This document shows positions 2,241 to 61,878 of a stretch of 64,000 nucleotides of DNA, piece by piece. The stretch spans positions 62,001 through 126,000 of the forward strand of contig NZ_AP023248.1 in assembly GCF_016756535.1 (NCBI RefSeq), given 5' to 3'. Positions within the stretch are counted from its first letter, which is position 1; every line of letters starts with the position of its first letter. The DNA is from Mesorhizobium sp. 131-2-1. GTDB lineage: Bacteria > Pseudomonadota > Alphaproteobacteria > Rhizobiales > Rhizobiaceae. The notes below the pieces were generated by a model that worked only from the letters and a program-made list of their open reading frames with translations, made no database searches and was not told the DNA's origin. A program made the position numbers and the translations under genes.

Positions 2241-2252
2241 GGGGAGGCGATC

Positions 2253-3296: not shown

Positions 3297-3475
3297 ACGG
3301 CCCGAACCGGCACGCGGGCAGGGGTGGCGTCACCGGAATATTCGCTGGCATGGCGGCGGTCCGCCGGAGAGGCCGCGCCCGCGGCCTGCCCGAGAGGCGA
3401 CCCCTGCCACCCCCCGGTCACGGCTGCAACGGCTGCGCCGTCCTCCGCTTTGCTACGGCCTTCGGTGCAGCCGCG

Positions 3476-3495
3476 CCCGGCGCGCGGCCGGGTTT
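3476..3495 (+). terminator. GC-rich hairpin with short T run
   Basis: CCCGGC (3476-3481) pairs with GCCGGG (3487-3492) across a 5-nt loop and is followed by TTT. It lies in the 245-bp leader between the Toprim gene and the DUF2493 gene. It is a weak attenuator-like structure; the T run is too short to call a strong terminator. Confidence 0.28.
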
Positions 3496-3541
3496 CGCTG
3501 TCAGGCCGCGATGGGCGCGGCACAACCGACGGAGACCCACC

Positions 3542-4483: not shown

Positions 4484-4639
4484 AGCGCCGCTTTCCTCGC
4501 AACCGCATCATTGAACCCGACCGGGCGCGGTCGGGTTCGGCCCGCGCGACGTGCAGCAAAGCACGCGCAGGAACCACGGCACCCTCCGACTCCACGGATC
4601 GTATCGATGCGGTGGAGCCTTCCGCCAGGCAACGTGGTA

Positions 4640-4672
4640 TTGCGTTCCGCGTTACATAGACGTATATACGTC
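4640..4672 (+). promoter_or_regulatory. tacAT promoter with palindromic operator
   Basis: TTGCGT (4640-4645) and TATATA (4663-4668) are spaced by 17 bp, a good sigma70-type promoter 20-50 bp ahead of the antitoxin ATG. The -10 box sits inside a perfect 14-bp palindrome, GACGTATATACGTC (4659-4672). A ribbon-helix-helix antitoxin binding here would block RNA polymerase, which is the usual autoregulation of TacAT/AtaRT modules. Confidence 0.72.
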
Positions 4673-4691
4673 CGCAGCACAGGAGCGCGCC

Positions 4692-4976
4692 ATGGCCACC
4701 ACAGCCACGAGGAAGGAAACACCCGTCTCGATGCGGTTTCGCGACGATGATCTCACCATCATCGACCGCGGCGCGGAGTTGCTCGGCCTGTCGCGTACGG
4801 AGTTCGTGCGGCGCGCGGCACTCCACGAGGCGCAGGCGGCCATCCTCAACGAAACCGTCATCCGCGTGTCCCCGGAAGCCTATGACGCCTTCATGCAGGC
4901 GATCTCGGCCCCCGCCGCCGCGCCTCCGCCGAAGGCGGCCGAGCGGCTGCGTCGTTCCGCGCCCTGGGATCGCTAG
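4692..4976 (+). CDS. tacA: DUF1778 antitoxin, TacA family
   Basis: A 94-residue protein. The N-terminal ~45 residues form a ribbon-helix-helix: the strand VSMRFRDDD is followed by two helices, including LLGLSRTEFVRRAAL. This is the DNA-binding part that represses the operon. The C-terminal tail, with an alanine/proline-rich linker and the ending PWDR, would wrap around the partner acetyltransferase as in other TacA/AtaR antitoxins. The ATG at 4692 is chosen because it starts the RHH fold just after the promoter; an open frame upstream has no homology-like content. Its stop codon directly abuts the GTG of the toxin gene. Confidence 0.88.
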   Translation: MATTATRKETPVSMRFRDDDLTIIDRGAELLGLSRTEFVRRAALHEAQAAILNETVIRVSPEAYDAFMQAISAPAAAPPPKAAERLRRSAPWDR

Positions 4977-5480
4977 GTGGCGCTTTCAGGCATTGAACTC
5001 CTCGACGACGCACACCGCCTCGACAGCTTCGATTGCGGCAAGCCGGCGCTCAACGCTTGGCTGGCCGGCTTCGCGCGAACGAACCAGGCGCGCGGGTTTA
5101 CCCGCGTCCTGGTCGTTCACGACGAGGGAACAGTCGTCGGCTATTACGGCCTCGCGCCGGGCGTGATCCAGCCAAACAGCGCACCGCGCGCCATCCGCAC
5201 CGGGCGCCCGCCCGATCCGATCCCCTGCCTGCTCATTGGACAACTCGCCGTCGACCACCGCTATGCCGGACAAGGCATCGGCAGCGGCCTGGTCAAGGAT
5301 GCGCTGCATCGCTGCGTCGCCGGCGCCGGCATCGTCGGCGGTCGCGCGGTGGTGGTGCGGGCGATCGACGCCGAGGCCGAGCGCTACTGGCAGAGCTGGG
5401 GTTTTGTCCCGTCGCGGGACAACCCGTCTATCCTGATGCGCTCGATCCAGGATGTGAGCCTCTGGCTGGCCGACCACTAG
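4977..5480 (+). CDS. tacT: GNAT acetyltransferase toxin, TacT family
   Basis: A 167-residue GCN5-type N-acetyltransferase with a GTG start immediately after the antitoxin stop. Visible features are the N-terminal segment LDSFDCGKPALNAWL typical of TacT/AtaT toxins, the acetyl-CoA loop VDHRYAGQGIGSGLV (Q/RxxGxG/A type), and the C-terminal AERYWQSWGFVPS carrying the conserved tyrosine. Family members acetylate the amino group of aminoacyl-tRNA and stop translation; TacA binding neutralises them. On a mobile element the pair probably aids stability through post-segregational killing, or limits phage. The target tRNA cannot be read from sequence. Confidence 0.88.
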   Translation: MALSGIELLDDAHRLDSFDCGKPALNAWLAGFARTNQARGFTRVLVVHDEGTVVGYYGLAPGVIQPNSAPRAIRTGRPPDPIPCLLIGQLAVDHRYAGQGIGSGLVKDALHRCVAGAGIVGGRAVVVRAIDAEAERYWQSWGFVPSRDNPSILMRSIQDVSLWLADH

Positions 5481-7735: not shown

Positions 7736-8146
7736 TTATTCCTTCGGCAGTTTGTGCTTATGAATGCGGATATAATCCTGCACAGCCTTTCGCAGCAGCT
7801 CGGTCATGCTGTGCCCGTTGCTGATCGCCAGCAACTTGAACTGGCGCTGCTCAACGGCCGTCAGATAGTACCCGCAGCGGATCATCTCCTCCTCGCGAAT
7901 CTTCTTGCCGGCGATGGGATCCTTTTTCTGACCTCGCCGCAGCAGCTTGCGAAAGTCAGGCGTTGCACCCGATGTCGGCTCAGGCGTCTGCGGCATGGCC
8001 GATCCGGCATTTGGCTCCAGCTTCTGCCCCTCGTTTTTCGCTGAAGAAATGAACATGCTGGGCAATGCCGGCGGCTGCGTGGAGATCGCTTTCATCATGC
8101 GCGCTTTCTTGTCGTCACCGGGTTTCGGCGCGGTTTCTTCACTCAT
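7736..8146 (-). CDS. Ribbon-helix-helix partner of the ParA-like ATPase (VirC2-like position)
   Basis: A 136-residue protein. The N-terminal ~75 residues are proline/lysine-rich and look disordered. The C-terminal ~60 residues (REEEMIRCGYYLTAVEQRQFKLLAISNGHSM-type stretch, then LLRKAVQDYIRIHK) form a ribbon-helix-helix DNA-binding domain. The ATG overlaps the stop of the ParA gene by 4 bp, so the two are translationally coupled. The order ATPase then RHH protein is that of virC1-virC2 of Ti plasmids and of parA/parG-type partition operons. The likely DNA targets are the palindromes upstream of the operon (8849-9131). Sequence similarity to VirC2 itself is not claimed. Confidence 0.72.
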   Translation of the reverse strand: MSEETAPKPGDDKKARMMKAISTQPPALPSMFISSAKNEGQKLEPNAGSAMPQTPEPTSGATPDFRKLLRRGQKKDPIAGKKIREEEMIRCGYYLTAVEQRQFKLLAISNGHSMTELLRKAVQDYIRIHKHKLPKE

Positions 8147-8823
8147 GCCGCGTTCCTCGTGGCTTCGATGAAGGTTTGCAGGAGGTCGTCGAAGACCCCT
8201 TCGCTCTCGGCAACCGCCTTCGCATCGGGCACCGCGGGGCTGTAAAGTGTCTGCCCGGTCTGTAGGTCGCGGTAGGCAACACGATTGTGCAGGACGTGTT
8301 CCGCAATCGGCGTGCCGTTGGCCTGGATGATGGCGCGCAGTTCGGTCAGGGCTCGCGCCCTGCCATCGATGATGGTCTGCTTGGTCAGCACGAATATCGC
8401 GGGCAGCGGTCTACCCCGGCTCTCGACCGCCAGCGGAATGTAGTGGTCGGTGATCTGGATGGCGGCGGTCACGTCGTCGAGGGCAAAATAGACAGGCACG
8501 ACGACAATATCGGCCGCGAAGAGCCCGGCCATGAGGTTGTCATTTGTGGTGCCTTCCGTATCGATCAATACGACGGAGCGCTCACCGTTGTGAGTGGCTG
8601 CAGCGTCGAGAATTTCCTGCGGGGTGATTGCGCTGACCAGCTGCAGGCTGTCAGGGCGATTGCCAGCGTCACCCAGCATCTGGAACCAGCGGTTCATGTT
8701 CTGCCGCCGATCGCCATCGATAAGGGTGACCGAATAACCCCGATGCAGCGCGACGGATGCGAGGGTGCGCAGCAGCGTCGATTTGCCGGTGCCGCCCTTT
8801 GGGATCGCAGCGGAGATGATCAT
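8143..8823 (-). CDS. ParA/MinD-type ATPase, VirC1-like
   Basis: A 226-residue P-loop ATPase. The start at 8823 is preceded by GGAAGGAGG. It has the deviant Walker A PKGGTGKST (K9 signature lysine, K14), the segment LIDGDRRQNMNRWFQ where Ti-plasmid VirC1 has its DADxNRP/RW region, and the switch region VLIDTEGT. The short length, lack of an N-terminal DNA-binding domain and the RW motif place it nearer to VirC1 than to RepA or chromosomal ParA. VirC1 binds overdrive DNA beside the T-DNA border and spatially positions the relaxosome at the cell poles. Here the gene also sits next to a border-like oriT. Partition or transfer stimulation are both possible. Confidence 0.82.
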   Translation of the reverse strand: MIISAAIPKGGTGKSTLLRTLASVALHRGYSVTLIDGDRRQNMNRWFQMLGDAGNRPDSLQLVSAITPQEILDAAATHNGERSVVLIDTEGTTNDNLMAGLFAADIVVVPVYFALDDVTAAIQITDHYIPLAVESRGRPLPAIFVLTKQTIIDGRARALTELRAIIQANGTPIAEHVLHNRVAYRDLQTGQTLYSPAVPDAKAVAESEGVFDDLLQTFIEATRNAA

Positions 8824-8848
8824 GGGGGCCTCCTTCCGGCGTTGGCTC

Positions 8849-8876
8849 CTTGTTTCCATGTCGACATGGAAACAAG
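8849..8876. promoter_or_regulatory. Perfect 28-bp palindrome upstream of the virC-like operon
   Basis: The half-site is CTTGTTTCCATGTC and its exact reverse complement follows, centred between 8862 and 8863. It begins 26 bp upstream of the ParA-like start codon. A degenerate half-site, ATGGAACA, follows at 8890-8897. It is probably the binding site of the RHH partner protein, as operator, partition site or transfer enhancer. Confidence 0.8.
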
Positions 8877-9060
8877 TCATCATGGACACATGGAACAATG
8901 TTGCGGTCGAAACCTGGTGACATAGTCAACAGGGCAGACCGGTTTGGCAACCCAGGCGCGAATCAAAAAGGCTCGCCCAGGGGTGCCCATCACTACGAGG
9001 CTGCTACCTTTATAGGGATCGAATCCGGTGGGCCGTTCGTGACTGCGAACCGGCTCTGGT

Positions 9061-9082
9061 GTTTCTATGTTAACATGGAAAC
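9061..9082. promoter_or_regulatory. Second palindrome of the same family
   Basis: GTTTCTATGTT (9061-9071) faces AACATGGAAAC (9072-9082) with a single mismatched pair. With the 3' flank, CATGGAAACAAGTC at 9074-9087 is identical to 8865-8878 in the first palindrome. A further half-site, ATGGAAACA, is at 9123-9131. The cluster fills the region between the virC-like operon and oriT. Confidence 0.72.
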
Positions 9083-9200
9083 AAGTCCTCACCGCATCAT
9101 AGACACATCGCATCAAATCACGATGGAAACATTGCGACCAGGGCCCTTGCGGTTGACAATCGGCCGGCGGAGAAAGGAACGTCCGCTTTCACTCGTTTAT

Positions 9201-9239
9201 TGGCAGGATAGCCTATTTTGTGATACACACAAAATAGGC
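9201..9239 (-). other. oriT: Candidate origin of transfer (oriT) with nick site
   Basis: A perfect 12-bp inverted repeat, GCCTATTTTGTG (9211-9222) and CACAAAATAGGC (9228-9239), has a 5-bp loop. Directly next to it, 9201-9210 reads TGGCAGGATA. On the minus strand this is the repeat followed by TATCCTG/C, the nick consensus YATCCTG/Y of IncP-type oriTs, with nic predicted between 9204 and 9203. TGGCAGGATA is also the core of the Agrobacterium T-DNA border. The site is 45 bp upstream of mobC and the relaxase gene, where oriTs usually lie. Transfer would lead leftward through the virC-like and DUF736 genes. Confidence 0.8.
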
Positions 9240-9283
9240 GGCGCGGCCCTGGCGGGCTTAGCGCCCGCAAGCGGGCTTGAGAG

Positions 9284-9691
9284 ATGAATGCAAACCCCCA
9301 GAAAGCAGCGGTGAAGAGCGCGTCACGACGCTACGGCGAGGTGACGCACATCCGGTTTTCGGCTGACGAGCTGGCCAGCCTCAAAGCCATTGCGGAGCGG
9401 GACGGCGTCACCGTCAGCGAGGTCGTCCGGCGTCTGGTGCGGGCTGAGGCCGGGCATCTGCCTATCGCGTCAGAGGGGTTGCGGCCGGCGATCGTGGACA
9501 TGACCGATCAGCTGCGGCGCGTAGGCGTCAATTTCAATCAGGCCGTGCGCGCCATGAGCGACGGCCGGGTTGCCCATGATGAGGATCTTGAGCAGGCGTT
9601 GATGGCGGTGGGCAACCTCGTGCGGCAGTTCCGCGAGGAGCTGAAGGCGATGACTGGCGAGTCCCGCAAGGCGAGGGACACCAGGCCATGA
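9284..9691 (+). CDS. mobC: MobC-like relaxosome accessory protein
   Basis: A 135-residue protein. The N-terminal part (VTHIRFSADELASLKAIAE then VTVSEVVRRLVRAE) is a ribbon-helix-helix DNA-binding fold. The C-terminal helices (LRPAIVDMTDQLRRVGVNF-type, NQAVRAM) carry the LRRVGVNFNQ pattern characteristic of MobC/MbeC-type relaxosome proteins. It would bind the oriT inverted repeat just upstream and help melt the nick region for the relaxase. Its stop overlaps the relaxase ATG (ATGA at 9688-9691), so the two are coupled. The inverted repeat at 9211-9239 may also make it autoregulatory. Confidence 0.85.
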   Translation: MNANPQKAAVKSASRRYGEVTHIRFSADELASLKAIAERDGVTVSEVVRRLVRAEAGHLPIASEGLRPAIVDMTDQLRRVGVNFNQAVRAMSDGRVAHDEDLEQALMAVGNLVRQFREELKAMTGESRKARDTRP

Positions 9692-49846: not shown

Positions 49847-51994
49847 CTAATCGACTAGATCAGGCAAAGCTTCTTCGACGATGCTCAGATTTCGATCGAA
49901 AGTCTCGGTGTCGGATACGTTGACGCGCAGAGAACGCACCTTGTTCAGGATGGCCGCAACCGCCGCTTCCTTGTCGGCCGCTATGCGTGTTGTCACCGCT
50001 TTGGCCGCCAAAGCGGTGAAATCTATGGCGGCATAGACTGGTACGGCTGCAGCGTCTGTTGCTTTCAGCCGGTCTTTCACGAATGCGCGCCGGCCCGGAG
50101 GCGGAGCTATACGGCCTGCCTTTGCGGCAAATGTCGCGCCGCGCCGCAGCCGGGTCTGCACAAGGCCTGAGCGGTACCTGGGTGCTTTCGGCACAATCGT
50201 CGGGAGCGCAGGAGATGGAACCGCCGCGGAAGTGTCCAATGCAGGGCTTTTCGTGCGCGAAGCGTCGATAGAGGCGGGCAGGGGCATGGACGCGCGTTTG
50301 GCTAGCTGGCCGTCGGCGAAATAGAAATTGCGGGTGCCGAGGATCGGCAGTTCCCCACGCGGCAATATGATCACCTTGTTCTTGTCGAGCGTGCGGATTT
50401 CATCTGGCCGCATCAAGGGCCGCCGCACTTCCTTGCTGTGCTCCGAGCGCGTGTAATAAGTGTCGAACAACGTTGCCTTGGTGCGCGTCACGTCTTTTTG
50501 CACGTCCGACGTTTCGCCGAGCTGCTCGGAAACGTAGCGCAGATCGTCAGCGTCCTGCGCACCGAAAAAGATCTGCACGCGAGCAGCGTTGATGAGCGTC
50601 TTGCGCCCTTCCTGGCGATAGATCTCGTCTACGGCCTTCAGCGACTGCACGAAAAACCACATGGAAACGCCGTTGCCGCCGAGCACGCTCGCCATTTCGG
50701 TCACGTTCTCGAGCTTGCCGAGGTTCTGGAACTCGTCGAGGAGCACAAGCACCGGGTGCTCGTCCGGACGCGGCATGGTTTCCGACATGAAGTTCATCAT
50801 TTGCGTAATCAGGACGTTGAACAATGGCCCGAGCGAGGTGATCTGCTCACGCCGCACGTCGAGATAAACAGAGATCCGGTCGCGTTTGAGATTGCGAATA
50901 TCGAACGTGCTTCGCGACGTGGCCCGCATCAGGCGCTCGTTGAGAAACGGGGCCATGGCGGTGCGAACGCCGGCGTAGATTCCGGAAAACTGCCGCTCAG
51001 ACATCTCGAAATACGGCAACAGGGTTTGCAGCGTAAAATGCGAACATTCGCGGCGGCGTTCCTCGCGCAGCGAGCCAATGAACTCCAGGAGCGGCTGCTC
51101 GGTGCCGTTCATGATCTCGAGAATTGTGGCGAAGGTCTTCCTCTCGTTCGGGATCGTAGGCGATTCCATGACGAAGGACGCGATCCCGGTAAAAAGCAGG
51201 CGGGCATCGTTGACCCAATAGGGATCCGCGTTCGAAGGGGGGCGCGGAAACAGTGCCGCAGCGATGTTGCGAAGGTCGATGTCGCGCTGTGCTGGGTCCA
51301 GCGAGATGAAGTCCATCGGGTTATAGCATGCGGTATTGCCGTCCGGATCAGCCGGCGCGAAACGCACCACGCGGCTCATGGTCGAACGGTAACCAGCAGT
51401 GGCCGCATAGGTCTCGCCGCGCAAGTCGAGAACCACGAGCGAGTGCGGCCAGGTCAAGGCGTTCGGGATTATGAGAGCCGTGCCCTTACCGGAGCGCGGC
51501 GGGCCTATGACGAAGCCGCCGACATCATCGCCATCAATCCATAATTTCTTGCCACCGACCAGCTTGCGCTGGGTCAAGCGGATCTTGCCGGAGCGCTGAT
51601 CGCGGCTGGGCGACAGAATTTCGGCAAGCCTGCCGCCGGCTCGACCGACGAAAACGCCGCCAACTTTCGTCAGGCCGGTTTTTGATACGTCGCTCATCGT
51701 CATGAAGCGCGAGTCATTGCGCTTTCTCGGACGCATGAGAAACAAGCTGACCAGTGGCAACAGAAACCCTAATGCTCCTGCCGTAACGGCGTATTGTACC
51801 CGGTCAAAATTCCTCGCCATCGTGTCCGCCCAGGCCTGACGAACAACCGGTAAGGGATTGGCGTTCAGCTGGTCGAACAGGACGTGGGCGCCAGTGCGAT
51901 ACCAATCAGTCGCGGCATAGGCGACCGTGAACAGCAGTGCGCCCAGGGCCAGCGCCATGAGCACCATGAAAATTGCTGTTGCGATTTTCTGCAT
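49847..51994 (-). CDS. virD4: VirD4/TraG-type coupling protein
   Basis: A 715-residue inner-membrane ATPase. Two N-terminal hydrophobic segments (about residues 7-28 and 68-87) anchor it. Walker A is GPPRSGKGT (164-172), Walker B VLVLLDEFQ (415-423). It receives the relaxase-DNA complex and hands it to the VirB channel. The C-terminal ~130 residues are alanine/proline-rich and variable, as in family members that read substrate signals. It is the last gene of the minus-strand operon, 12 bp after virB11, at the end nearest the cargo. Confidence 0.93.
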   Translation of the reverse strand: MQKIATAIFMVLMALALGALLFTVAYAATDWYRTGAHVLFDQLNANPLPVVRQAWADTMARNFDRVQYAVTAGALGFLLPLVSLFLMRPRKRNDSRFMTMSDVSKTGLTKVGGVFVGRAGGRLAEILSPSRDQRSGKIRLTQRKLVGGKKLWIDGDDVGGFVIGPPRSGKGTALIIPNALTWPHSLVVLDLRGETYAATAGYRSTMSRVVRFAPADPDGNTACYNPMDFISLDPAQRDIDLRNIAAALFPRPPSNADPYWVNDARLLFTGIASFVMESPTIPNERKTFATILEIMNGTEQPLLEFIGSLREERRRECSHFTLQTLLPYFEMSERQFSGIYAGVRTAMAPFLNERLMRATSRSTFDIRNLKRDRISVYLDVRREQITSLGPLFNVLITQMMNFMSETMPRPDEHPVLVLLDEFQNLGKLENVTEMASVLGGNGVSMWFFVQSLKAVDEIYRQEGRKTLINAARVQIFFGAQDADDLRYVSEQLGETSDVQKDVTRTKATLFDTYYTRSEHSKEVRRPLMRPDEIRTLDKNKVIILPRGELPILGTRNFYFADGQLAKRASMPLPASIDASRTKSPALDTSAAVPSPALPTIVPKAPRYRSGLVQTRLRRGATFAAKAGRIAPPPGRRAFVKDRLKATDAAAVPVYAAIDFTALAAKAVTTRIAADKEAAVAAILNKVRSLRVNVSDTETFDRNLSIVEEALPDLVD

Positions 51995-52006: not shown

Positions 52007-53032
52007 CTAGATCGTCTCCGCCTTGGTGAACTTGATCTCGCTGATGCCGCGGCGGCCGCCTTCGGTGCGGACCATCTGGACGACCACTGGAATGACCTCT
52101 CGCAGATAGTCGAGGATTTCACTGCGTGAGAGGCCCGTACTGCCCTGCATGACCATGAGCGTCAGCCGCTCATAGGCGGACCGGGCGGAATTGGCATGAA
52201 CGGTCGTGAGCGAACCAGGATGGCCGGTGTTGATGGCCTGCAGAAATGCGAAGGTTTCAGCGCCGCGCAATTCGCCCAACAACAGACGGTCGGGTCGCAT
52301 GCGAAGCGAGGCTTCGAGAAGCTGTTGCGCGGAGACTTTGGCAAGGCCCTGGTCGCCCTTCGAGGCTATCAGGGTGACGTTGTTGGGAGCCGGCAGCCTC
52401 AGTTCGCGGGTGTCTTCGATCGTGATGATCCGTTCATGAGCCGGAATCTCCTTCAGGAGTGCATTCAAGAACGTTGTCTTGCCGGTCGACGTGCCGCCTG
52501 AAACGACGATCGAGATGCGGTTGCGCACCGCATAACGCAGGAAGTCCATCGGCGATGTGTCGTGCAGCATTTCGACAAGTCGCTTTTCTTCGCTTGAAAG
52601 CGCCAGGCCGCTGCCCATCGTCGTGCTTTCGAATGCACCGAGATCGTTGTAGGCATCAAGGCTCATATCCATGATGACCTGCTTGCGGATCGATATCGCC
52701 CCGCCTTCGGGAGCCGCCGGCGGCAAGATGCATTGGATGCGCTCACCCGAGGGTAGAGCGGCCGAAAGGACCGGCTTTTCTTCGTTGATGACCTGATTTG
52801 TCGCCGAGGCGACGCCAGTCGATATGTTGCGAATCCAGCCGGGCGTGATCTCGCGCTTGACGACGTGCTCCATTTCCTTCGCGCCGAGGCGTTCGATGAA
52901 CAGTTCACCCGGCCTGTTGATCGCAATCTCGGAAACCGAGTCTTCGTTCAAATAGGAGCATATCGGTTCCAGATGAGCGCGCAGGACCGGGGCTCTTGCC
53001 CAAGGGTCGGGGAGGGGATGCACGGCGTTCAT
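52007..53032 (-). CDS. virB11: VirB11 secretion ATPase
   Basis: A 341-residue hexameric traffic ATPase. Walker A is GGTSTGKTT (179-187), the Asp box ITIEDTREL (203-211), Walker B RLLLGELRG (249-257) and the His box NTGHPGSLTTVHAN (268-281), all intact. It switches the secretion system between pilus assembly and substrate transfer with VirB4 and VirD4. The start overlaps the virB10 stop by 4 bp. Confidence 0.94.
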   Translation of the reverse strand: MNAVHPLPDPWARAPVLRAHLEPICSYLNEDSVSEIAINRPGELFIERLGAKEMEHVVKREITPGWIRNISTGVASATNQVINEEKPVLSAALPSGERIQCILPPAAPEGGAISIRKQVIMDMSLDAYNDLGAFESTTMGSGLALSSEEKRLVEMLHDTSPMDFLRYAVRNRISIVVSGGTSTGKTTFLNALLKEIPAHERIITIEDTRELRLPAPNNVTLIASKGDQGLAKVSAQQLLEASLRMRPDRLLLGELRGAETFAFLQAINTGHPGSLTTVHANSARSAYERLTLMVMQGSTGLSRSEILDYLREVIPVVVQMVRTEGGRRGISEIKFTKAETI

Positions 53033-54492
53033 TTCACCGGGCTCCCATAGCCGGGATAGAAATGATCCTTCGGCGTCGGGTAAAGGGGCGTCGGATCGAT
53101 CGCTGTCTTCGGCCGACCACCTGCCTTCAGGCGCACGACTTCTTCCTGAATGGGATCAGCGTACAAATCCGAAAAATCGAGATCTCGCCGCACCAGCACG
53201 ACGATCGATGTGCCCTGGTCGACGTAGACTGTCGGGCCAATGTTCTGCGTGTCGCGAAACGCCTCTTGCGCAAGTTGCTGCAGGGCGGTTGATGACTTGT
53301 CGAACGCGATGCTGCGGGCGTCGCGCTGCGAGCCATTGCCACCATACGTTACGGTCGTGGTCTCACCGGTTACGGGATCAACCGTCGACACCTGGCGCTG
53401 TTGTCCATCCTGGCTGCGATCGCCAAGCGAGGACAGATATTCAGAGACGCCGCCAACAACGGAAAGCATGATGGCGTTGCCGTACCGTTCAACCCAGTGC
53501 GTATCGACACGTCCGCCCATGCCGCCGCGGCCGAGCGCATCTGCCCCCGGCGACTTGATATCGACGGAAATGCCGTCCGAGCGAATGACCCTGTTCCAGA
53601 CGATGAAGACACGCTTCTGACCGCGCGCAAGCCCGGAGCGATATTCCCCGGTTAGCCGCGAGCCCTTCGGGATGAGGATCCGCCTGCCGTCGAGCGAGAA
53701 GACATCCTCACGCACGACTGCACGTACGGCGCCGGGAAGGTCAGTGTTAACAGCGGTTTCCAAATAGCCGCGAAGGATCGTTCCTTCAGGGATCAAGGCA
53801 TCGGTGCGTCGGAAGGCCCTGGCTTTGACGATACCGGAAGAACTTGCCTCAGACTGCGCCAGGAATGCCTTGTTGGGGTCAGTGTCGGCGCCGGGCACCG
53901 GAACGATCTGACCGTCGGGCGCGATTTCGACCTGTGCCGCCTGGGCGCCCGCATTCGTCGATCCGTTTTCATCATTCGTCACCATCTGGTTCGACCGCAG
54001 GCGCTCCCATACGGCCTTTTCATGCTCGGCGGCCTCAGCCTTGCGGCGAGCCTCGTCCTCAGCCGCGGCCTTACGTCGGGCCTCTTCCTCTTCGGCCTTG
54101 CGGCGAGCCTCCTCGGCCGCCATTTGCGCCTCGAGCGCGCGTCGCTGTGCATCGAGATCCGCGCCCTCCTGCACGGTCTGATCGACATTGTCTGCCTGCT
54201 GCGTGCCACTCTGGTCGGCGGCCGGCGGCGGAACCACGATCTGGTCGATCGTGCCGTCGGCAGGTTGAGGCGGCTCGTTCAACGCCGGGGGGCGAAACTC
54301 CGGCGGGTTGAAGTTTTCCTCGCCATCGCTGCGGAGATCACGCGACACCGGCTCCCGGGGCCAGTTCAGCCATATCAGCGCGCCTACGAGCACCACGCCG
54401 AGGCCGACCAGGGCGATCTTGGTACCCACGCCCGCGCCGCGGCGCGCGACCGTCGGGCTGCCGTCTAGCTGGTTATAGTCGATCTGGGTCAT
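53029..54492 (-). CDS. virB10: VirB10 core-channel protein
   Basis: A 487-residue envelope-spanning protein. The ATG at 54492 overlaps the virB9 stop (TGATG) and has GGAGGG 5 bp upstream; the adjacent GTG is too close. One membrane helix (IALVGLGVVLVGALIWL, about residues 26-42) is followed by a proline-rich stretch, then a Glu/Lys/Ala/Arg-rich coiled-coil segment (EEARRKAAAEDEARRKAEAA). The C-terminal ~220 residues are the conserved beta-barrel domain (ILIPKGSRLTGEYRSGLARG, 20 residues). It bridges inner and outer membranes and senses ATP energy. Confidence 0.93.
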   Translation of the reverse strand: MTQIDYNQLDGSPTVARRGAGVGTKIALVGLGVVLVGALIWLNWPREPVSRDLRSDGEENFNPPEFRPPALNEPPQPADGTIDQIVVPPPAADQSGTQQADNVDQTVQEGADLDAQRRALEAQMAAEEARRKAEEEEARRKAAAEDEARRKAEAAEHEKAVWERLRSNQMVTNDENGSTNAGAQAAQVEIAPDGQIVPVPGADTDPNKAFLAQSEASSSGIVKARAFRRTDALIPEGTILRGYLETAVNTDLPGAVRAVVREDVFSLDGRRILIPKGSRLTGEYRSGLARGQKRVFIVWNRVIRSDGISVDIKSPGADALGRGGMGGRVDTHWVERYGNAIMLSVVGGVSEYLSSLGDRSQDGQQRQVSTVDPVTGETTTVTYGGNGSQRDARSIAFDKSSTALQQLAQEAFRDTQNIGPTVYVDQGTSIVVLVRRDLDFSDLYADPIQEEVVRLKAGGRPKTAIDPTPLYPTPKDHFYPGYGSPVK

Positions 54493-55289
54493 CACCGCCC
54501 TCCGCTCGATCCGAACAGCGTGGAACCGTGTGTCAGTTTCGTAGGACCGTAGACCTGCTCGACTGGATCGATAGCGTTGGGTCGCGCCCGGTTGTAGAGG
54601 CAGAGCGTCTTGCCATCGGCCCGCAGGGTGAATTGCCGTGCGACCTTGTCGACGACGGTGTATTTGCCCTGTGTGCGAACGTTGACCAGCGACTCCTGAC
54701 GCTTGTCGTCGACAACGAAAATCGCCGGAATGTCGCCCTTGAATTCCAGAAACACCTTGGTGCCGTCGTCGAACACGGTGCGCGGCTTCAAGCTGTCGTC
54801 GCCCTTGTAGGCATAATCGTAGTTGAGATCGGCATAGTTCAGGTCCTTCAAGTCGGGATCGGCGGCGCTCTCCTTGGCCTGTGCGAGCAGCCGCGCGTTG
54901 ATATCCTCGTCCGGGTATTTGAACCGAACCTGGAAGGATGCCCGATCCCGGTCATTGTCAGTCGCCTGCAGCAGCAGGGAATAGACGCGCCGGTTGGTGA
55001 CGACGTTGACGTTGGTCCAAGCATCGCGCTCCAGCGGCTTGACGAACAGAAATCGCGATCCGCGTTTGGGGATGATCGACCAGCCCTTCGTGTCGCCGGC
55101 GGAGACGGTTTCGATGACTTCGGTCGGACTGAGCTCGACCATGGTTGAAATGCCAAGAGCTGCACGCACCGACGTCACGTCGTCATTGTTGAAGGTGACA
55201 TATCGGATGCGGCCGTCGCGCGCGGCCGCGCCGTGGATCGTGCCGAGCATAAGGGCGGCTGACAGGGCGAGGCCCGCGCGCCATCTCAT
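54492..55289 (-). CDS. virB9: VirB9 outer-membrane core protein
   Basis: A 265-residue periplasmic/outer-membrane protein. The ATG at 55289 begins a signal peptide ([20 protein letters not shown]), giving mature protein from about AAARDGRI. The longer open frame upstream is antisense-like shadow of virB8. Typical VirB9 motifs are [23 protein letters not shown] and [19 protein letters not shown] (19 residues), and a C-terminal beta-domain. It forms the outer core ring with VirB10 and a VirB7 lipoprotein. Confidence 0.92.
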
Positions 55290-56005
55290 TGCAGGCTCCC
55301 CGCGGCCGGCGCCGATTCCTGGTCGCGGCGGTAATCCGTAACCTGAAATCCCAACGGGTTGTCGAAACGCCATTCGTTCTTGAGTGGCGTCGAGGTGTAG
55401 CGGAATTTTATCACGGCCACCCAATTGCCGGTTGTCGACGAATTGTCCCGCCGCGTCGTCGTGGCAAAGCGTACCGAGGCGGTGTTGCGATTGAGCAGGG
55501 AAACGGACTTGATCTCGACCGCGACGGTGACATTGCGGCCATAGGTCTTGTCCAGAGATTGCGGATTTGCGGGCGTGAAAGCCCAAGTCAAATCCTTGGA
55601 CGCCGCGTCGGTGGAGTAGAGCTGCGCCAGGTCGTAATTCTGTTTCAGTTCACGAGAATCGTACGTTTCGCGGGCCCTGATGTAACGCACCAGATTGGCC
55701 GCCGTGACGGCTTCGTTTTGGGACAAATCCCCAGGCTTCAAAGCGCGCATGATCTCGAGGTAGCCCGTCGATTTGTCGACCTCGACAACGTACGGCTCGA
55801 ACTGCCGGAGCGGCAGGATCAGCACGAGCGCCAGCAGCGACAGCACCGCCACCAGTCCGGAAACGCCGCTGACGATCCATGCCAATGTCCGCGATCGCCG
55901 CATTGACCTGTGCGTGTCGTCTTCCCAGGTCGCGCCTGCCCTGTAGTAGCGCTTGTCGACGAGTACGCCGCTGACGCCAGCTGCAGTTTCCGATGGTGTT
56001 GACAC
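55286..56005 (-). CDS. virB8: VirB8 assembly protein
   Basis: A 239-residue bitopic protein with GTG start. A single membrane helix ([20 protein letters not shown], 20 residues, about 41-60) precedes a periplasmic NTF2-like domain ([27 protein letters not shown]). VirB8 nucleates the channel. Its start codon lies inside a copy of a repeated element also found before virB1 (55993-56012), so virB8-virD4 may be separately controlled. It overlaps virB9 by 4 bp. Confidence 0.92.
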
Positions 56006-56012
56006 TTTCCTA
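55993..56012 (-). promoter_or_regulatory. Repeated regulatory element at the virB8 start
   Basis: On the minus strand this reads TAGGAAAGTGTCAACACCAT, identical at 18 of 20 positions to 62907-62926 in the virB1 divergent promoter. It covers the virB8 GTG start codon and lies in the only sizeable gap (68 bp) of the virB operon. A regulator bound here could block transcription or translation of virB8-virD4. Confidence 0.62.
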
Positions 56013-56073
56013 TTGCCTCGTTTGCGCGACGCAATCCTTATCCAGGGCCGCGATCGATGATCGTTCTTGAGTT

Positions 56074-57117
56074 CTAGGCCAGAGGCTTGGCGTTATCGCG
56101 CGCACCTTGCTGGATGGCGGACCGAGTTGCGGCATCGGCCCTTGCTGCCCGCGGAGACCAAAAACTGTTTGCCGCGAGCTGCCGGGCGCCCCGAGCGGCG
56201 CGGCCGGCTGCCCATCGTGCACCGGAGTAGCGCACGGCGTTTCTGCCGAAGTTTCTGTAAGGGTTGTATGCGCCGACGGTACTGAGATATCCGCCGCCAT
56301 TCAGGATCGAAGCAATCGATGGTATCTGCATCAGAACGTAGATCCCGATGATTGTCACCAGCACCAAGGGCAGCACCAGCGACATCTTGCTGTCCATGGT
56401 CGCCCCACCGGACGTGGCGGTGTTCAGCGCCGCATTGACGAGCGAGAAGTAGAAGCCGAGAAAACCGTAAATCAGGATTTGCTGAATCATCAGGAAGGTC
56501 GTGAGCGAAAGGAAGCCTTCGCTCATGCGAGAGGACCAGCGGTAAAGCCAGAGAATGATCCATATCGGCGCCAAGGCGAGCGTGATGAACAACATCACCT
56601 TGGCGGCGATGATCGCGGCAATGGCTAGCGCTGCGAAGATGATGGCCGAAAGCAGAACGAGCAGCGACAAGAGCGCGCCAAAAATGTCATAGAAGGATCC
56701 GCTATAGACCTGATTGGCGACGTCCTGCGCTCCTCGGTAGAGATTGTCGATCAGCGCCGGAATTGCCGCCTGATCGCTGAGTTGATTGCCGGTGGCTCGC
56801 GATACGGCGCCGACGATGACCTTACCGACCTCATCCGGGATGCTTTGAACAAGCTGGTAGATCGTCGCGGAAAATGTGCCCCATCCGGTCAGCAGCAGAT
56901 AGATGATGACGGCGCGGCCGAGGCGATAGGCTGCTTCGAGCGGCGAGATCGACTCTCGCCCGCTCAGGATCGAGTAGCCCCACCACACGATGTAGAGGGT
57001 GAGCATGAGGGTGAAGACGTTGCCCATCGCATTGCCCAACTGCATATAGACGGTGCGGACGAAGTCCTCGCCGATGTTGTCAATGCCACCGAGAATGCTT
57101 TCGGCAAGACCGTTCAT
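56074..57117 (-). CDS. virB6: VirB6 polytopic membrane protein
   Basis: A 347-residue inner-membrane protein starting MNGLAESILGGIDNIG at 57117. The open frame upstream belongs to the lipoprotein gene region and is discarded. Several hydrophobic helices cluster at 30-70, 165-245 and 270-290, with the conserved tryptophan-rich loop IWIILWLYRWSSRM. The C-terminal ~60 residues are arginine/alanine-rich and cytoplasmic. VirB6 forms part of the translocation channel through the inner membrane. The start overlaps the lipoprotein gene by 4 bp. Confidence 0.9.
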   Translation of the reverse strand: MNGLAESILGGIDNIGEDFVRTVYMQLGNAMGNVFTLMLTLYIVWWGYSILSGRESISPLEAAYRLGRAVIIYLLLTGWGTFSATIYQLVQSIPDEVGKVIVGAVSRATGNQLSDQAAIPALIDNLYRGAQDVANQVYSGSFYDIFGALLSLLVLLSAIIFAALAIAAIIAAKVMLFITLALAPIWIILWLYRWSSRMSEGFLSLTTFLMIQQILIYGFLGFYFSLVNAALNTATSGGATMDSKMSLVLPLVLVTIIGIYVLMQIPSIASILNGGGYLSTVGAYNPYRNFGRNAVRYSGARWAAGRAARGARQLAANSFWSPRAARADAATRSAIQQGARDNAKPLA

Positions 57118-57296
57118 GGATCCTCGTGAATGATGCTGGCGAACGGCGTTGAATTGACCGGCTTTAGCGCGCCGCATTCGTCGGTGTGGGCATACGCCAA
57201 AGGCCCGCACGGCGCTTTCAATTCGCGATTTGCGCATCCGAAAAGCACTGCGCCGAGCCCAATCACAGCGCATATGCGCAACGCCCGCCTCGACAA
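57114..57296 (-). CDS. Small lipoprotein, VirB7- or entry-exclusion-like
   Basis: A 60-residue protein from a TTG start (57296) with GGAGG that overlaps the end of virB5. The N-terminus ALRICAVIGLGAVLFGC is a lipoprotein signal with lipobox LFGC, so the mature protein is ~40 residues. Position between virB5 and virB6 is where IncN/IncW systems keep an entry-exclusion (Eex) lipoprotein, whereas VirB7 of Ti plasmids lies between virB6 and virB8. No other VirB7 candidate is present, so it may serve as VirB7. The mature part contains two further cysteines. Confidence 0.68.
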   Translation of the reverse strand: MSRRALRICAVIGLGAVLFGCANRELKAPCGPLAYAHTDECGALKPVNSTPFASIIHEDP

Positions 57297-57299
57297 GCG

Positions 57300-58034
57300 C
57301 TAGCCTCCGCTCTTGCCAAATTCCGCGAACGGATTGACGTTGCGCGGTGTCATCATCTTCTGCACCTGGCTCTGGCGAAGAAGATCTCCCTTCAGCTTCT
57401 CATTCAGGGCCGCGACCGCACCATTCTGGACACCGATCAATTCGTTGACCGCGCGCGCGTTTTCCAGCTGCATCCGTGTGTTCTGGTCCACCGATCCCTT
57501 GACGTCCTGCGACTGGCCAATCTGCCCACTCGCGGACTGCAGGGACTGCTGGCGTTGGGTGACGCCCTGCGAGGCCTGCGAAGTCAGCGCGCTTAGCAAC
57601 GAGGCCACGTTGACACTGCCGCCATAGGCAGTGTTGACGGCGCTCGTCTCCTTGCCGGCAATCTGCTGCAGCTGCTTCACCAGTTGCAACCCGTTGATAA
57701 CGGCGCCGGCGATTTTCTGGATTTCAGGGGACAGGCCACCAAACGAAAGCGCGCCACCATTGAGGATCGATCCGAAGGACGGCGCCTGGGCAATCGACAT
57801 GTTGCCTCCGAGGCCCATTTGTCCGATCCCGAGCGAACCGTCGCGGCTGCCGCTGAGAGCCTGCAGGATCTCCTCGCTCTTTTTCATGATATCCTTGTTC
57901 GAATCCATGATGGAGTTGGTGTTCTCCGCATTCTTGCGGGCGACATCGAGATTGGCGCCATCGATGACGGCAATCTGTGCAAGGGCAGCACTCGTCCAAA
58001 GCGCTATGCCTGCAGCAATCGCGAATTTCTTCAT
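57300..58034 (-). CDS. virB5: VirB5 minor pilin
   Basis: A 244-residue secreted protein. The ATG at 58034 has GGAGG 6 bp upstream; an ATG 6 bp earlier would sit on the ribosome site. The signal peptide is MKKFAIAAGIALWTSAALA, with cleavage before QIAVIDGANLDVARKNAENT. Long amphipathic helices rich in Gln and Ser follow, as expected for a VirB5/TraC pilus-tip protein. Its mature N-terminus QIAVIDGxNLD is shared with the product of the next gene upstream. Confidence 0.85.
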   Translation of the reverse strand: MKKFAIAAGIALWTSAALAQIAVIDGANLDVARKNAENTNSIMDSNKDIMKKSEEILQALSGSRDGSLGIGQMGLGGNMSIAQAPSFGSILNGGALSFGGLSPEIQKIAGAVINGLQLVKQLQQIAGKETSAVNTAYGGSVNVASLLSALTSQASQGVTQRQQSLQSASGQIGQSQDVKGSVDQNTRMQLENARAVNELIGVQNGAVAALNEKLKGDLLRQSQVQKMMTPRNVNPFAEFGKSGG

Positions 58035-58044
58035 GGTCATCCTC

Positions 58045-59202
58045 CTATTGCTGTAGAGAATTGATCACGCTGGCAGCGCCCGCAGGATCACTGGTGATGA
58101 TCATCGAGCGGCTGTCGGCCGAGCTTGCCTCCGCGTTCTCAACCGCGCATGGTAGCCACCGGCCGCGATCGATCTTCAATCGTTCCAGTTCCGCGGGATC
58201 ACAAGAGAATGGGTTTGGAGAGCCGGTCTTCGGCTGCTGCACCAGCTTTGACGACTGCGATGCCTGAACATTCTGCAATGATAGAAATTGGGCTAGCAAA
58301 GCCGTAAAATCCCCCGCCTGGGCGAGGTACTGGTTGGTGACATCGGCGTTGATCCCACGGGCGGACGAGTTGAGCTCCCAAGCGTCCTTGTATTCGGTCA
58401 CCTGGCCAACATTGCCCGCCAGCGCGTCGATTGCCGCGTCGTTGGCGCCCATCCGCGATGCACTTGCATCGAGGCCGCCAGCCGCCTTCCTCACAGTGCC
58501 CATGGCGGCGTCCTGGGCCGAGCCGCCTGCGCCGTCGGCCGTTACGATCGAGAATGGTGGCGGTGCGGCGGCCGGAGCCTTGCCGCTCGATACATACTCG
58601 TTGAAGTAGCCGTTCCAGCGGCCGACGCCGCCTGCCCACCCTCTTTGCTCGGCAGCGTTCGATCCGTTGTAGAAGGAGGCGAGACAGCTGTAATTCGTCG
58701 CTCCGCATTGCTTCACGCCCATTCCGAGATATTTGACGCCGCCTTCGACATTCTGCTCGTTCACGTCGCGATCAAGTCCCATGGACTTGCCGGTGCCCTT
58801 GGTCAGCTGCATCACGCCTTTGACGCCGGTGTGGCTCCCGGCGCATGTGTCGAAGCGCGATTCCTGATAGGCAACGGACAGCGCCAGGCCTTCGGGCACG
58901 CCGTATTTCTGCGCATAATAGCGGATCATCTTCACGTTGCCCGCGTCGCGCTGCAACGCTTCGGCCGGGGATCGGCGAAACATCTGTGAGCGGTATTTGT
59001 TCGAGTAGGTGCAGACTACGCTTTTCTTCTTGTCGGTTTCGTCCTTCTTGGCCTCGTCCGACTTCGTACTGTGCTGCTCGTCCTCTTGCCGCTTGTCGAG
59101 GTTCGGCCCGTCGATGACCGCGATCTGAGCGACAGCCACGGTCATGCTTTCCGCCGTCGCGAGAGCCACGGCCAGACAAAAGCTGCTAATCCGCTTCGTC
59201 AT
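58045..59202 (-). CDS. Lytic-transglycosylase-domain protein with VirB5-like N-terminus
   Basis: A 385-residue secreted protein starting MTKRISSFCLAVALA after GGGAGGACGAG. After the signal peptide the mature end reads QIAVIDGPNLDKRQEDEQ, nearly the same as VirB5. Residues ~75-190 form an SLT-type transglycosylase domain: YGVPEGLALSVAYQESRF holds the catalytic glutamate, then GVKGVMQLTKGTGKSMG and ASFYNGSN. The C-terminal ~190 residues are Ala/Gln-rich helices like VirB5. It would open the cell wall at the channel. It is the second transglycosylase of the cluster besides VirB1, and looks like a VirB1-VirB5 hybrid. Confidence 0.82.
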   Translation of the reverse strand: MTKRISSFCLAVALATAESMTVAVAQIAVIDGPNLDKRQEDEQHSTKSDEAKKDETDKKKSVVCTYSNKYRSQMFRRSPAEALQRDAGNVKMIRYYAQKYGVPEGLALSVAYQESRFDTCAGSHTGVKGVMQLTKGTGKSMGLDRDVNEQNVEGGVKYLGMGVKQCGATNYSCLASFYNGSNAAEQRGWAGGVGRWNGYFNEYVSSGKAPAAAPPPFSIVTADGAGGSAQDAAMGTVRKAAGGLDASASRMGANDAAIDALAGNVGQVTEYKDAWELNSSARGINADVTNQYLAQAGDFTALLAQFLSLQNVQASQSSKLVQQPKTGSPNPFSCDPAELERLKIDRGRWLPCAVENAEASSADSRSMIITSDPAGAASVINSLQQ

Positions 59203-61588
59203 GCTCGTCCTCCCATCCGCAGAAGTACGGCAACCACATCTCCGGCTCGGCGCCGAAGGTTTCCCGCAGCCGCGCGCATTCCTTGCTGTTGGCTTCATTC
59301 GAGGACAAGACCTTGATGAGATCGGGCATCGCCGACAAATCGAGCTTGGCTACGATGGAATCGCTGTCGTGCTTGACGAGGAAGGTGCGTGTCTCCTTCG
59401 CGGTGCGGCGCACGAACTCGAATTCCTTCGCTGTCAGCGAGAAGCGCTCCATGTAGGATTCCTTGCTCGCCTTCGGGTTGGGGAAGAAAATGTTGGTCTT
59501 CGTTTGCTCGATCAATGACGACGAGATGGAGGAACTGACGACATCTTCGGCCGTCTGCGTGCCAAAGCCGACCACGCCGTTGCGGCGGCGAATGGTCTTC
59601 AGCGTCTCGTTGATGAAGGCGGCGAAAACCTCGTCGTCCAGCAGCTTCCAGCCTTCATCGAGGAAGAGCATGATCGGCGAGCCGTCGATGACGTCCTCAA
59701 GGCGGTGGAAGATGTAGAGCAACGCCGCCGAGCGCAGCTTTCGGTCGCCCAGGATCTTTGTCATGTCGAACCCGACAACGGGTTTCGAGAAATCGACCAG
59801 ATCGACGGGATTGTTGAAAAGCCAGCCCTTGTCCTTCGGGTCGAGCCAGGGCTGTATCCGCGCGGCCAGATCGTTCATGTCAGGCATGAGCGAGCCCCGC
59901 AGAACTTCCGGCAGCAGGTCGAAGGTCCGCCGTTCGCGCGGGATCTTGTAGATCATGTCGACGGCGGCGTTGATGACGCGCATCTCCGCCACGTCCAGCG
60001 CGCCGCCTTCCGGCGTCAGAATGTAGAGGAGCAAATCTTCAAGGAACGAACGGTTTTCCGCCGTGTCATCAAGCTGCAGCGGCGCGAACCCGGTCGGCTG
60101 AGAGGGCTCCATCACCTCGTAGCGACCGCCGAGCGCCCGAACGAAAATTTCAGCGCCGCGCATGTAGTCGAAATAGACGCATCGCGGCCGCGGCATGATG
60201 CGCATGGCCTGCGCCATCAGGAACGACAGCACCACGGTCTTGCCCGAGCCGGTCGGGCCAAACACCGTGAAGTGCCCGACATCGTGAACGTGGAAATTGA
60301 AATAGTAAGCCGTCTGGCTGGTCGTTTCGAGCAAAGCGATGGGCCGTTTCCAATGCAGCCGCTCACGTTGGCCGGACGGGAAATTATGTCCCGAAAACAG
60401 CCCGGCAAAGTTAAGAGACGAGATCAACGCACGTCGCGCGATGTAGCTGAAATTTCCTGGCAACTGCGCCCAGAAGGCGAGTTCCGTGTTCAGTGTCTCG
60501 CGCACCGGCACGATCGACATGCGCGAAAGCTCGGCCGTGATGTCGGATAGCGCGCGGTTGAGACCGTTCATGTCCGGCGCCAATGCCATGACGCTCATGT
60601 GATGTTGTCCGAAGACGACTTCGCCGCCGGCCAGCTTATCGGCGCCGTCGTGTACCGACTCCTCGACCGTCGTGCCCGCCTCGTCGGAAGCCTCAACCTG
60701 GTTGGCGATGGTGTTGATCCTGCGCATCGCCGTCACACGGTCTTCGATCGCGAAGCTCTGCGTCAGGACAAACTCATGCGGCAGGCGCAAGAGACCGTCC
60801 AATGAGCCCGGCGCGGTGAACGGCGGGTATTCCTTGATCGACACCATGGCGCCGAGCTTGCCTTGGTCCGGCCCGCGAATTTCCAGCGCCGACTTGCCGA
60901 AAAACAGCTGCCGCGTCGCCAGCACATCGCCAAGTGACATGCGCGGCAAAGGCATTTCCACGTCCACGCCGCCGGCGAGGATCTTCGCCAGAAATTCCGC
61001 GGGCTCGGAAAAGAAGCTGTCGCGGCGCTTCACGACACCGAGAAGACGTCCCCCATATGCGGAGAAATCCTTGACCATGCCGTCAAGGATGTCATGCAGT
61101 TCGGCGATAGCCTCTTCGCGCGTTTCTTCGCCGGCGGTGCTGACGCGGAATGCATTGAGCGCCTTGTCCACCCAGCCGACCCGGCCGACCATCGGGCGGC
61201 GTATGACCGTCAGATACGCCTCGTTGACGAAAAGGTTTTTCGATCCAAGCTCATCCATGTAGCGGGCGTCGAGCTCGGCCACGAAAGGATTGTCAAAGTC
61301 GCCTTCGATCTCCGGCGTCACGTGGCGGCGGATGATCGTTGTGTAGACCGCAAAGCGAGAGGTCGACAGGTTGCGGAACGTGGTGTTGCGGTTGAACATT
61401 CGGCTGTTCAACTCGGCCTGGTCCATCGTCTGGAACGGCAGGCCGCTGAGCTGGATGGCGCCGACCAGAAAGCCACTCTTCGTCACGATCAGATTGTCAT
61501 CGACATGGCGAAGGTAGGGGATGTGCATCGCAGCTGGTTTTTCGCGGCGGCGCTCACGGCCAAATTTAAGGTCGGCATCGAGGCTCAT
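59186..61588 (-). CDS. virB4: VirB4 secretion ATPase
   Basis: An 800-residue ATPase starting MSLDADLKFGRE at 61588, overlapping virB3 by 4 bp. Walker A is FGPTGSGKTVVLSFL near residue 440-455 and Walker B is PIMLFLDEGWKLLDD near residue 640. The N-terminal half contains the conserved IPYLRHVDDNL and LPRMSLGDVLATRQ segments. It powers pilin extraction and substrate movement. The last 17 bp overlap the start of the transglycosylase gene. Confidence 0.94.
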   Translation of the reverse strand: MSLDADLKFGRERRREKPAAMHIPYLRHVDDNLIVTKSGFLVGAIQLSGLPFQTMDQAELNSRMFNRNTTFRNLSTSRFAVYTTIIRRHVTPEIEGDFDNPFVAELDARYMDELGSKNLFVNEAYLTVIRRPMVGRVGWVDKALNAFRVSTAGEETREEAIAELHDILDGMVKDFSAYGGRLLGVVKRRDSFFSEPAEFLAKILAGGVDVEMPLPRMSLGDVLATRQLFFGKSALEIRGPDQGKLGAMVSIKEYPPFTAPGSLDGLLRLPHEFVLTQSFAIEDRVTAMRRINTIANQVEASDEAGTTVEESVHDGADKLAGGEVVFGQHHMSVMALAPDMNGLNRALSDITAELSRMSIVPVRETLNTELAFWAQLPGNFSYIARRALISSLNFAGLFSGHNFPSGQRERLHWKRPIALLETTSQTAYYFNFHVHDVGHFTVFGPTGSGKTVVLSFLMAQAMRIMPRPRCVYFDYMRGAEIFVRALGGRYEVMEPSQPTGFAPLQLDDTAENRSFLEDLLLYILTPEGGALDVAEMRVINAAVDMIYKIPRERRTFDLLPEVLRGSLMPDMNDLAARIQPWLDPKDKGWLFNNPVDLVDFSKPVVGFDMTKILGDRKLRSAALLYIFHRLEDVIDGSPIMLFLDEGWKLLDDEVFAAFINETLKTIRRRNGVVGFGTQTAEDVVSSSISSSLIEQTKTNIFFPNPKASKESYMERFSLTAKEFEFVRRTAKETRTFLVKHDSDSIVAKLDLSAMPDLIKVLSSNEANSKECARLRETFGAEPEMWLPYFCGWEDEHDEAD

Positions 61589-61878
61589 GGCGAATAGCTC
61601 CTCGCGCCCCAGAAAGTGAGGTTCGCCACCGCTCCGCGTTTGGAGACGCGCCGCTCGAAAATATGAAAGATGTAGGGGTCGCGCTGGCACAGATATGCGC
61701 TGACCAGATGCACCGCGCCGAACACGCCAAGACCGAGCATGAAGCTGCTTGTGGCGATAAAGCCGATCACCGCCAGGATGCCGTTCAGGGCAAAAACTTC
61801 ATATCGCACCCCCCATTTCATCGGGGGGCGTGTCAGGGGCAGGCTGACCGGCTCGACATAGACTTCCTCGTCGTCCAT
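61585..61878 (-). CDS. virB3: VirB3 inner-membrane protein
   Basis: A 97-residue protein with the conserved N-terminal SLPLTRPPMKWGV, one hydrophobic hairpin (FALNGILAVIGFIATSSFML, 20 residues, then GLGVFGAVHLVSAYL), and the DPYIFHIFERR segment that contacts VirB4. Start ATG at 61878, 3 bp after the virB2 stop. Confidence 0.9.
   Translation of the reverse strand: MDDEEVYVEPVSLPLTRPPMKWGVRYEVFALNGILAVIGFIATSSFMLGLGVFGAVHLVSAYLCQRDPYIFHIFERRVSKRGAVANLTFWGARSYSP

Follow-up and report, generated by a model that had tools for sequence, protein, structure and literature searches.

The MOBP nick consensus is (C/T)ATCCTG(C/T), and its ATCCTG core is required by both VirD2 and RP4 TraI (PMC3772185). 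In rhizobia, the type IV conjugative system consists of avhB/avhD4 together with traA/mobC/parA and belongs to MOBP0 and MPF_T; the plasmid pAtS4, of ~79 kb, is named as type IV (PMC10410297). The locus analysed here lies in a 64,000-nt stretch (the window; contig NZ_AP023248.1, positions 62,001 to 126,000) of Mesorhizobium sp. 131-2-1, where it lies on contig 2 of the two that make up the 7.1-Mb genome. Positions 9201–9239 of the window are very probably, judged from sequence comparison, the origin of transfer (oriT) of a rhizobial plasmid with a conjugative system of type IV (MOBP0-like, MPF_T). An earlier sequence-only reading had proposed an oriT candidate at this position, and the proposal holds: a MOBP-type nick sequence is accompanied in the window by a MobC-like protein, a MOBP-type relaxase and VirB/VirD4 genes, and the site is conserved together with the relaxase across many loci.

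The ten bases TGGCAGGATA occupy 9201–9210 and adjoin a perfect 12-bp inverted repeat with arms at 9211–9222 and 9228–9239 and a 5-nt loop (ATACA). On the minus strand TATCCTGC, at 9210–9203, fits the MOBP nick consensus. The minus strand runs from the repeat into TATCCTG^CCA, so the repeat lies 5' of the predicted nick, at a distance of 7 nt. A gap of 45 bp separates the end of the repeat from the ATG of mobC (9284), and the relaxase gene starts at 9688. With a predicted minus-strand nick between 9204 and 9203, coordinates below 9203 would lead and the relaxase gene would be transferred last. The repeat, its side, its distance from mobC and the relaxase, and the polarity had all been described in the sequence-only reading and agree with the present analysis.

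RP4 (IncP) oriT resembles this arrangement in TATCCTG^CC and in an inverted repeat 5' of the nick; it differs in the sequence of the repeat and in the third base past the nick on the nicked strand, which is C in RP4 and A in the window (PMC3772185). The RP4 nick in the present orientation, GGGCAGGATA, taken from an oligonucleotide in the same source, agrees with the window at 9/10 bases. The Helicobacter pylori tfs4 oriT, served by a VirD2-like relaxase described as phylogenetically distinct, likewise has TATCCTGC beside an inverted repeat before the relaxase gene, and a VirC1-like partner, whereas its repeat is another one and CAC follows the nick (PMC3772185). The type IV rhizobial system is similar in its divergent parA, oriT, mobC and relaxase, with virB/virD4 on the plasmid (PMC10410297), and by gene content the system of the window is a member of this group. 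The 78,730-bp record pAtS4a, taken to be plasmid pAtS4 of PMC10410297, has the same ten-base nick core as the window. However, the window relaxase is 24% identical to that of locus L094, which is itself 44.8% identical to the pAtS4a relaxase, and the arms are of the type GCCTATTTTGTG in the window as opposed to CGGAAAAA/CGCAAAAA; MOB-suite often misses the window's type. The window relaxase aligns at 18–40% identity with 13 relaxases of other groups (alignment A1).

Conservation of the site was assessed in 63 sequences, the window and loci L008–L069, with a threshold of at least 28 of 39 bases. The underlying relaxases came from 23 search loci, nine plasmid records and a genome search, and these sources overlap. 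The site is present in 49 of the 63 sequences. Ten of the 14 without it are L060–L069, with distant or fragmentary relaxases, and four of these (L061, L064, L067 and L068) combine the core with different arms. The remainder are L026, where the contig begins inside the gene, L059, where the flank is too short, and L039 and L053, which were equated by coordinates as one broken copy without the site. The 49 site-bearing sequences reduce to 31 distinct sites, 30 of which contain TGGCAGGATA exactly; L038 has one change. The nine plasmid records matching the window's transfer region all belong to Mesorhizobium (the search possibly omitted those of the window's own genome). Mesorhizobium strain 131-2-5 carries a relative of the plasmid. 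Among the plasmids with the relaxase locus, that of L008 has virB/virD4 genes nearby. On pMspAR02b (L039, Mesorhizobium sp. AR02) the site is lost and the relaxase frame is broken, and its genome, G070, has no pattern match; at L039 1–230, read by eye, the homologue of about window 8960 is joined directly to the base after the repeat (9240). A doubled oriT in contig G044:C59 (L183) runs through an N and has exactly repeated flanks; it was taken as a scaffolding artefact and was not counted.

The pattern TGGCAGGATA-N8-YGTGNNACA was derived from the relaxase loci and then searched independently of the relaxase, a search of the kind that the sequence-only reading had suggested. It occurs in 42/146 genomes of the genus (reversed control 1/146) and in 41/394 genomes of the family, spread over 29/109 genera (reversed control 0). 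At the level of the order 3/397 genomes match, all three within the family, which leaves 0/376 outside it (reversed control 0). The 61 pattern loci that were fetched (L110–L170) include the window's own site and others known from the relaxase searches. A same-strand relaxase frame lies downstream at 57 of the 61 (phmmer, E up to 0.001), namely at 29/30 loci of the genus and 28/31 of the family and order, two of these 31 being already known; three of the four loci without a relaxase meet a contig end within ~500 nt. A relaxed pattern, TGRCARGATA-N8-YGTG, was rejected: it matched 37/199 family genomes, the reversed control matched too, and the TGAC and TGGCAAG variants, read by eye, are without the arm sequence of the family and look like chance. 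The N7 spacing form found in Methylocystis occurred in 0/289 genomes of the class, a search that did not extend to the main N8 class.

Upstream regions of 20 distant relaxases, 27–41% identical to that of the window, were also sampled. At ten of these loci the same ten bases are followed by a repeat with another arm sequence, and at some of them this repeat is imperfect. Among named plasmids, mobC is preceded by the ten bases on pAtS4a and in Rhizobium sp. 007 and Shinella, and by AGGCAGGATA on pRmeGR4b; the order parA/mobC/relaxase is common to the window, pAtS4a and Rhizobium sp. 007. In Methylocystis the ten bases stand at a shorter spacing, and Nitrobacter has TGACAAGATA. The sole candidate in Bradyrhizobium sp. 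155 and Hydrogenophaga is CAGGATA, possibly a chance match. A sister oriT class was observed before other relaxases (L086, L103, L105, L106 and L175), in which TGACAAGATA is followed by a repeat like CCGGTTTGTGGGCCAAACCGG.

Across classes the arms differ in sequence and retain pairing. Over 41 distinct sites of the classes other than the window's, Watson–Crick pairing of the arms is 0.871, compared with a mean of 0.722 and a maximum of 0.771 when arms were swapped between sequences 500 times; pairing about a shifted axis is 0.40–0.46. Double changes that keep a pair also occur in the window's class (L013, L044). The constancy of the repeat centre is partly imposed, because the shared centre belonged to the search pattern.

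The features of the transfer region are collected in Table 1. The relaxase has a PF03432 domain and a linked accessory protein, the combination used to identify a MOBP-type oriT. A phmmer search of PDB sequences returned no relaxase among its matches; Foldseek by itself had no hit at E <= 0.001, and relaxases surfaced only on a second look. VirB2, VirB3 and VirB7 were not identified among the virB-type genes at 52007–61690, and an Rfam scan of window 8800–9700 returned nothing reaching the gathering score. A sequence resembling the second, G+C-rich repeat is present in most members of the window's site family, and an analogous GATCGAGGG/CCCTCGATC repeat was seen by eye at this position in many sites of other classes. 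Two copies of a palindrome like TTGTTTCCATGTCGACATGGAAACAA, the second imperfect, lie at or near the parA–oriT intergenic region (8850–8875 and 9060–9083) and are possible operators.

Table 1 Features of the oriT and transfer region, in window coordinates (. denotes no strand).
Feature	Position	Strand	Remarks
Divergent ParA/VirC1-superfamily ATPase	8143..8898	-	leading side
Hypervariable pyrimidine-rich tract just past the nick	9181..9200	.	corresponds to the purine-rich 5' end of the transferred strand
Nick core, minus strand TATCCTG^CCA	9201..9210	-	predicted nick 9204/9203; MOBP consensus match
Perfect 12-bp inverted repeat	9211..9239	.	likely relaxosome binding site / recapture hairpin (putative); arms differ between classes, pairing kept
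Second inverted repeat, G+C-rich	9249..9271	.	between oriT and mobC; 89% (I17)
mobC, NikA-like ribbon-helix-helix relaxosome protein	9284..9691	+	Pfam PF21983 28.3 bits, cut-off 27
MOBP-type relaxase, 740 aa	9688..11910	+	candidate nucleophile Tyr186; His motif HHKDTKHVHIH at 423-433
Coupling protein VirD4/TraG	49847..51994	-	PF02534 287 bits
virB-type mating channel genes	52007..61690	-	VirB11, B10, B9, B8, B6, PF07996 type IV secretion system match, transglycosylase, VirB4

The sequence directly shows the site and how well it is conserved, as well as which genes are present and in what order; binding, nick position, covalent linkage and transfer are proposed from this as follows. MobC would bind the inverted repeat, and the relaxase would nick the minus strand at 9204/9203, with Tyr186 remaining attached to the 5' end so formed. 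Delivery to VirD4 may be aided by the ParA-like ATPase, and the strand would leave through the VirB channel, starting with the leading region and ending with the relaxase gene. The sequence-only reading had virC-like genes entering first. The leading-side protein at 8143–8898 scores 26.9 bits with the Pfam VirC1 model, above its cut-off of 24; with NCBIfam it reaches 27.8 bits for VirC1, far below the cut-off of 313, and 89.7 bits for ParA_partition, below the cut-off of 180. It is a ParA-family ATPase, for which the label virC-like is only loosely right. Further along the leading region, window 258–4483 encodes a protein with a strawberry-notch helicase domain (a 660-aa frame), a toprim/DUF7146 protein and a YspA-like protein, an order repeated on L008 and L009; these genes would enter the recipient early. 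Window 4551–5480, also in the leading region, holds a TacA1-like antitoxin and GNAT acetyltransferase pair of toxin–antitoxin type.

Several observations weigh against the assignment as oriT. The arms are damaged or mismatched in some family copies (L017, L029, L031 and L058), and in the window's own class pairing shows no excess over exchanged arms (0.826 over 11 distinct sites; exchange mean 0.783, maximum 0.826), because the arms of this class vary little. The exact ten-base site is absent at ten of the 20 distant-relaxase loci; one of these, L086, has the TGACAAGATA variant, and our guess is that most of them belong to the relaxase type of symbiosis integrative and conjugative elements. 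L168 has 1.5 kb downstream of the pattern, in which phmmer detected no relaxase. PLSDB, which uses MOB-suite, types eight of the nine plasmids with the relaxase locus (L008, L009, L033–L039) as non-mobilizable. L034, L036 and L037, from strains 582 and 583, keep the oriT site although the relaxase is annotated in pieces or shortened; their plasmids may need a relaxase supplied in trans. Joint decay of site and relaxase was dropped as support because of these three loci.

Three other explanations of the site were weighed. It is highly improbable that a chance ten-mer stands next to an unrelated, terminator-like hairpin. By itself the ten-mer is not significant, because its counts are near control level: seven exact copies of TGGCAGGATA occur in the genome compared with six of the reversed motif, and five matches with at most one mismatch occur in the window compared with 2.16 expected, a number reached by 7/100 shuffles. 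The copy at 9201, however, is flanked by a 12-bp perfect arm, as opposed to at most 6 bp at the other six genomic copies, and the conservation of the site, its taxonomic spread relative to the reversed control and its linkage to the relaxase refute this explanation. An operator function, in which MobC would repress its own promoter at the repeat while the nick lies elsewhere, is unlikely, though it would suit a repeat 45 bp before mobC and a ribbon-helix-helix MobC protein. It leaves unexplained the ten conserved bases outside the repeat, which carry the MOBP nick consensus at a fixed spacing from differing repeats, as well as the end of conservation 3 nt past the expected nick in the window's subfamily. 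In its favour, MobC of RA3 is reported to autoregulate the mobC–nic operon (title of PMC4175270), so one site can have both functions.

The sequence-only reading also saw in the nick region a match to both the IncP oriT and the Agrobacterium transfer DNA (T-DNA) border, linking conjugative elements with the T-DNA system. The match is real over the ten-base core (9–10 of 10 bases) and stops at base 10. The left-border form, which we take to be TGGCAGGATA, agrees with the window core at 10/10, and this string occurs in vector papers; TG[G/A]CAGGATA is the core in common. The cut in the T-DNA border is at a position equivalent to the predicted nick. In the border consensus a second conserved block has GT at bases 20–21, as has the centre of the window's repeat; a shared GT is two bases and cannot support a T-DNA link. 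The published right border agrees with the window core at 9/10 (TGACAGGATA) and with bases 11–25 at 4/15 by our own count, which is the chance level (PMC5985610). The likeness to borders thus exceeds that to IncP by at most one base. Unlike a T-DNA border, the window has an inverted repeat and no direct border pair: the exact core occurs once in the window and the full site once in the genome. As on conjugative plasmids, mobC, a relaxase and a virB/virD4 set of its own accompany the site. Despite the border-like core, it is therefore hardly credible that a VirD2-like enzyme cuts here to export DNA to plants. A special T-DNA link is not supported, and the core shared by VirD2 and RP4 TraI was already established (PMC3772185); the border likeness reflects known MOBP nick biology, and a T-DNA bridge adds little to it.

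With the site read as an oriT, the sequence past the predicted nick was compared. In the window's subfamily conservation ends 3 nt past the predicted nick, and the following 20 nt are hypervariable and pyrimidine-rich. In a MAFFT alignment of 26 fully flanked loci, with each gap scored as a difference, pairwise identity stands at 0.97 within the 39-nt site and 0.84–0.96 rightward. Leftward it starts at 0.25 over the first 20 nt and is 0.38–0.43 to 60 nt, 0.62–0.77 at 60–140 nt and 0.36–0.54 at 140–240 nt, and the last drop indicates that the near tract is not the sole variable part of the intergenic region. In an ungapped, anchored comparison the first five bases left of the site are at 0.60 identity, and gapped pairwise alignment of the tract gives a mean of 0.58 compared with 0.52 for composition-matched shuffled tracts. 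The tract is 80% pyrimidine and the other left bins are 48–52% (26 loci). Over distinct sites the value is 78% in the window's class (n=31) and 54% in others (n=61), where some common sequence, read by eye, is retained in the tract; the hypervariable pyrimidine tract is thus a trait of the subfamily.

Tandem arrays abut the nick in four of the 31 distinct sites, with units of 39 nt (L008), 28 nt (L011 and L012) and 19 nt (L015), against a background of one repeat of at least 18 nt in 1185 random positions; the 66 sites compared from other classes had none. A single 28-nt unit is all that distinguishes L011 from L012 over 1.9 kb to the left and 1.5 kb to the right, so they represent one lineage and the arrays count as three independent cases. 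The 28-nt array is of the type carried by pMHa of M. huakuii 7653R (L033). Each unit bears a nick-like TGGC[A/G]G, as TGGCGGG in L008, TGGCAGG or TGGCGGG in L011/L012 and TGGCAGC in L015; the motif in the L011/L012 unit is 4–5 nt out of register with the true nick. A tentative explanation, which we regard as possible rather than probable, is that in this oriT family the sequence 3' of the nick was rearranged by the relaxase itself, the arrays and the hypervariable tract being the result. A round of transfer would then end not at nic but at a nick-like sequence a few tens of bases past it. Such late cleavage would duplicate the strand between nic and the nick-like site, giving arrays with TGGC[A/G]G in every unit, and repeated events would produce the hypervariable tract, with the purine-richness of the transferred strand kept by selection. 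Replication slippage could expand units made by the relaxase, or could account for the arrays alone. Nick-exact recombination between p_2 and p_3 of strain 583, which are 100% identical for ~725 nt on the right side and diverged on the left from the base next to TGG, was rejected: the oriT block is conserved in all, so the breakpoint is not placeable within roughly 90 nt. Literature searched by title and start of abstract, with subscription journals mostly outside coverage, contained no report of nick-abutting arrays or of the window's oriT. A 2020 paper on the transfer requirements of pRleVF39b reportedly exists and may map an oriT of this class.

With 9201–9239, a candidate oriT of predicted polarity becomes available for testing in large Mesorhizobium plasmids, a group in which eight of nine are called non-mobilizable by MOB-suite, and a simple pattern finds such origins across one bacterial family. 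If the arrays are indeed made by the relaxase, past errors of conjugation termination would be readable from plasmid genomes at a mapped spot.
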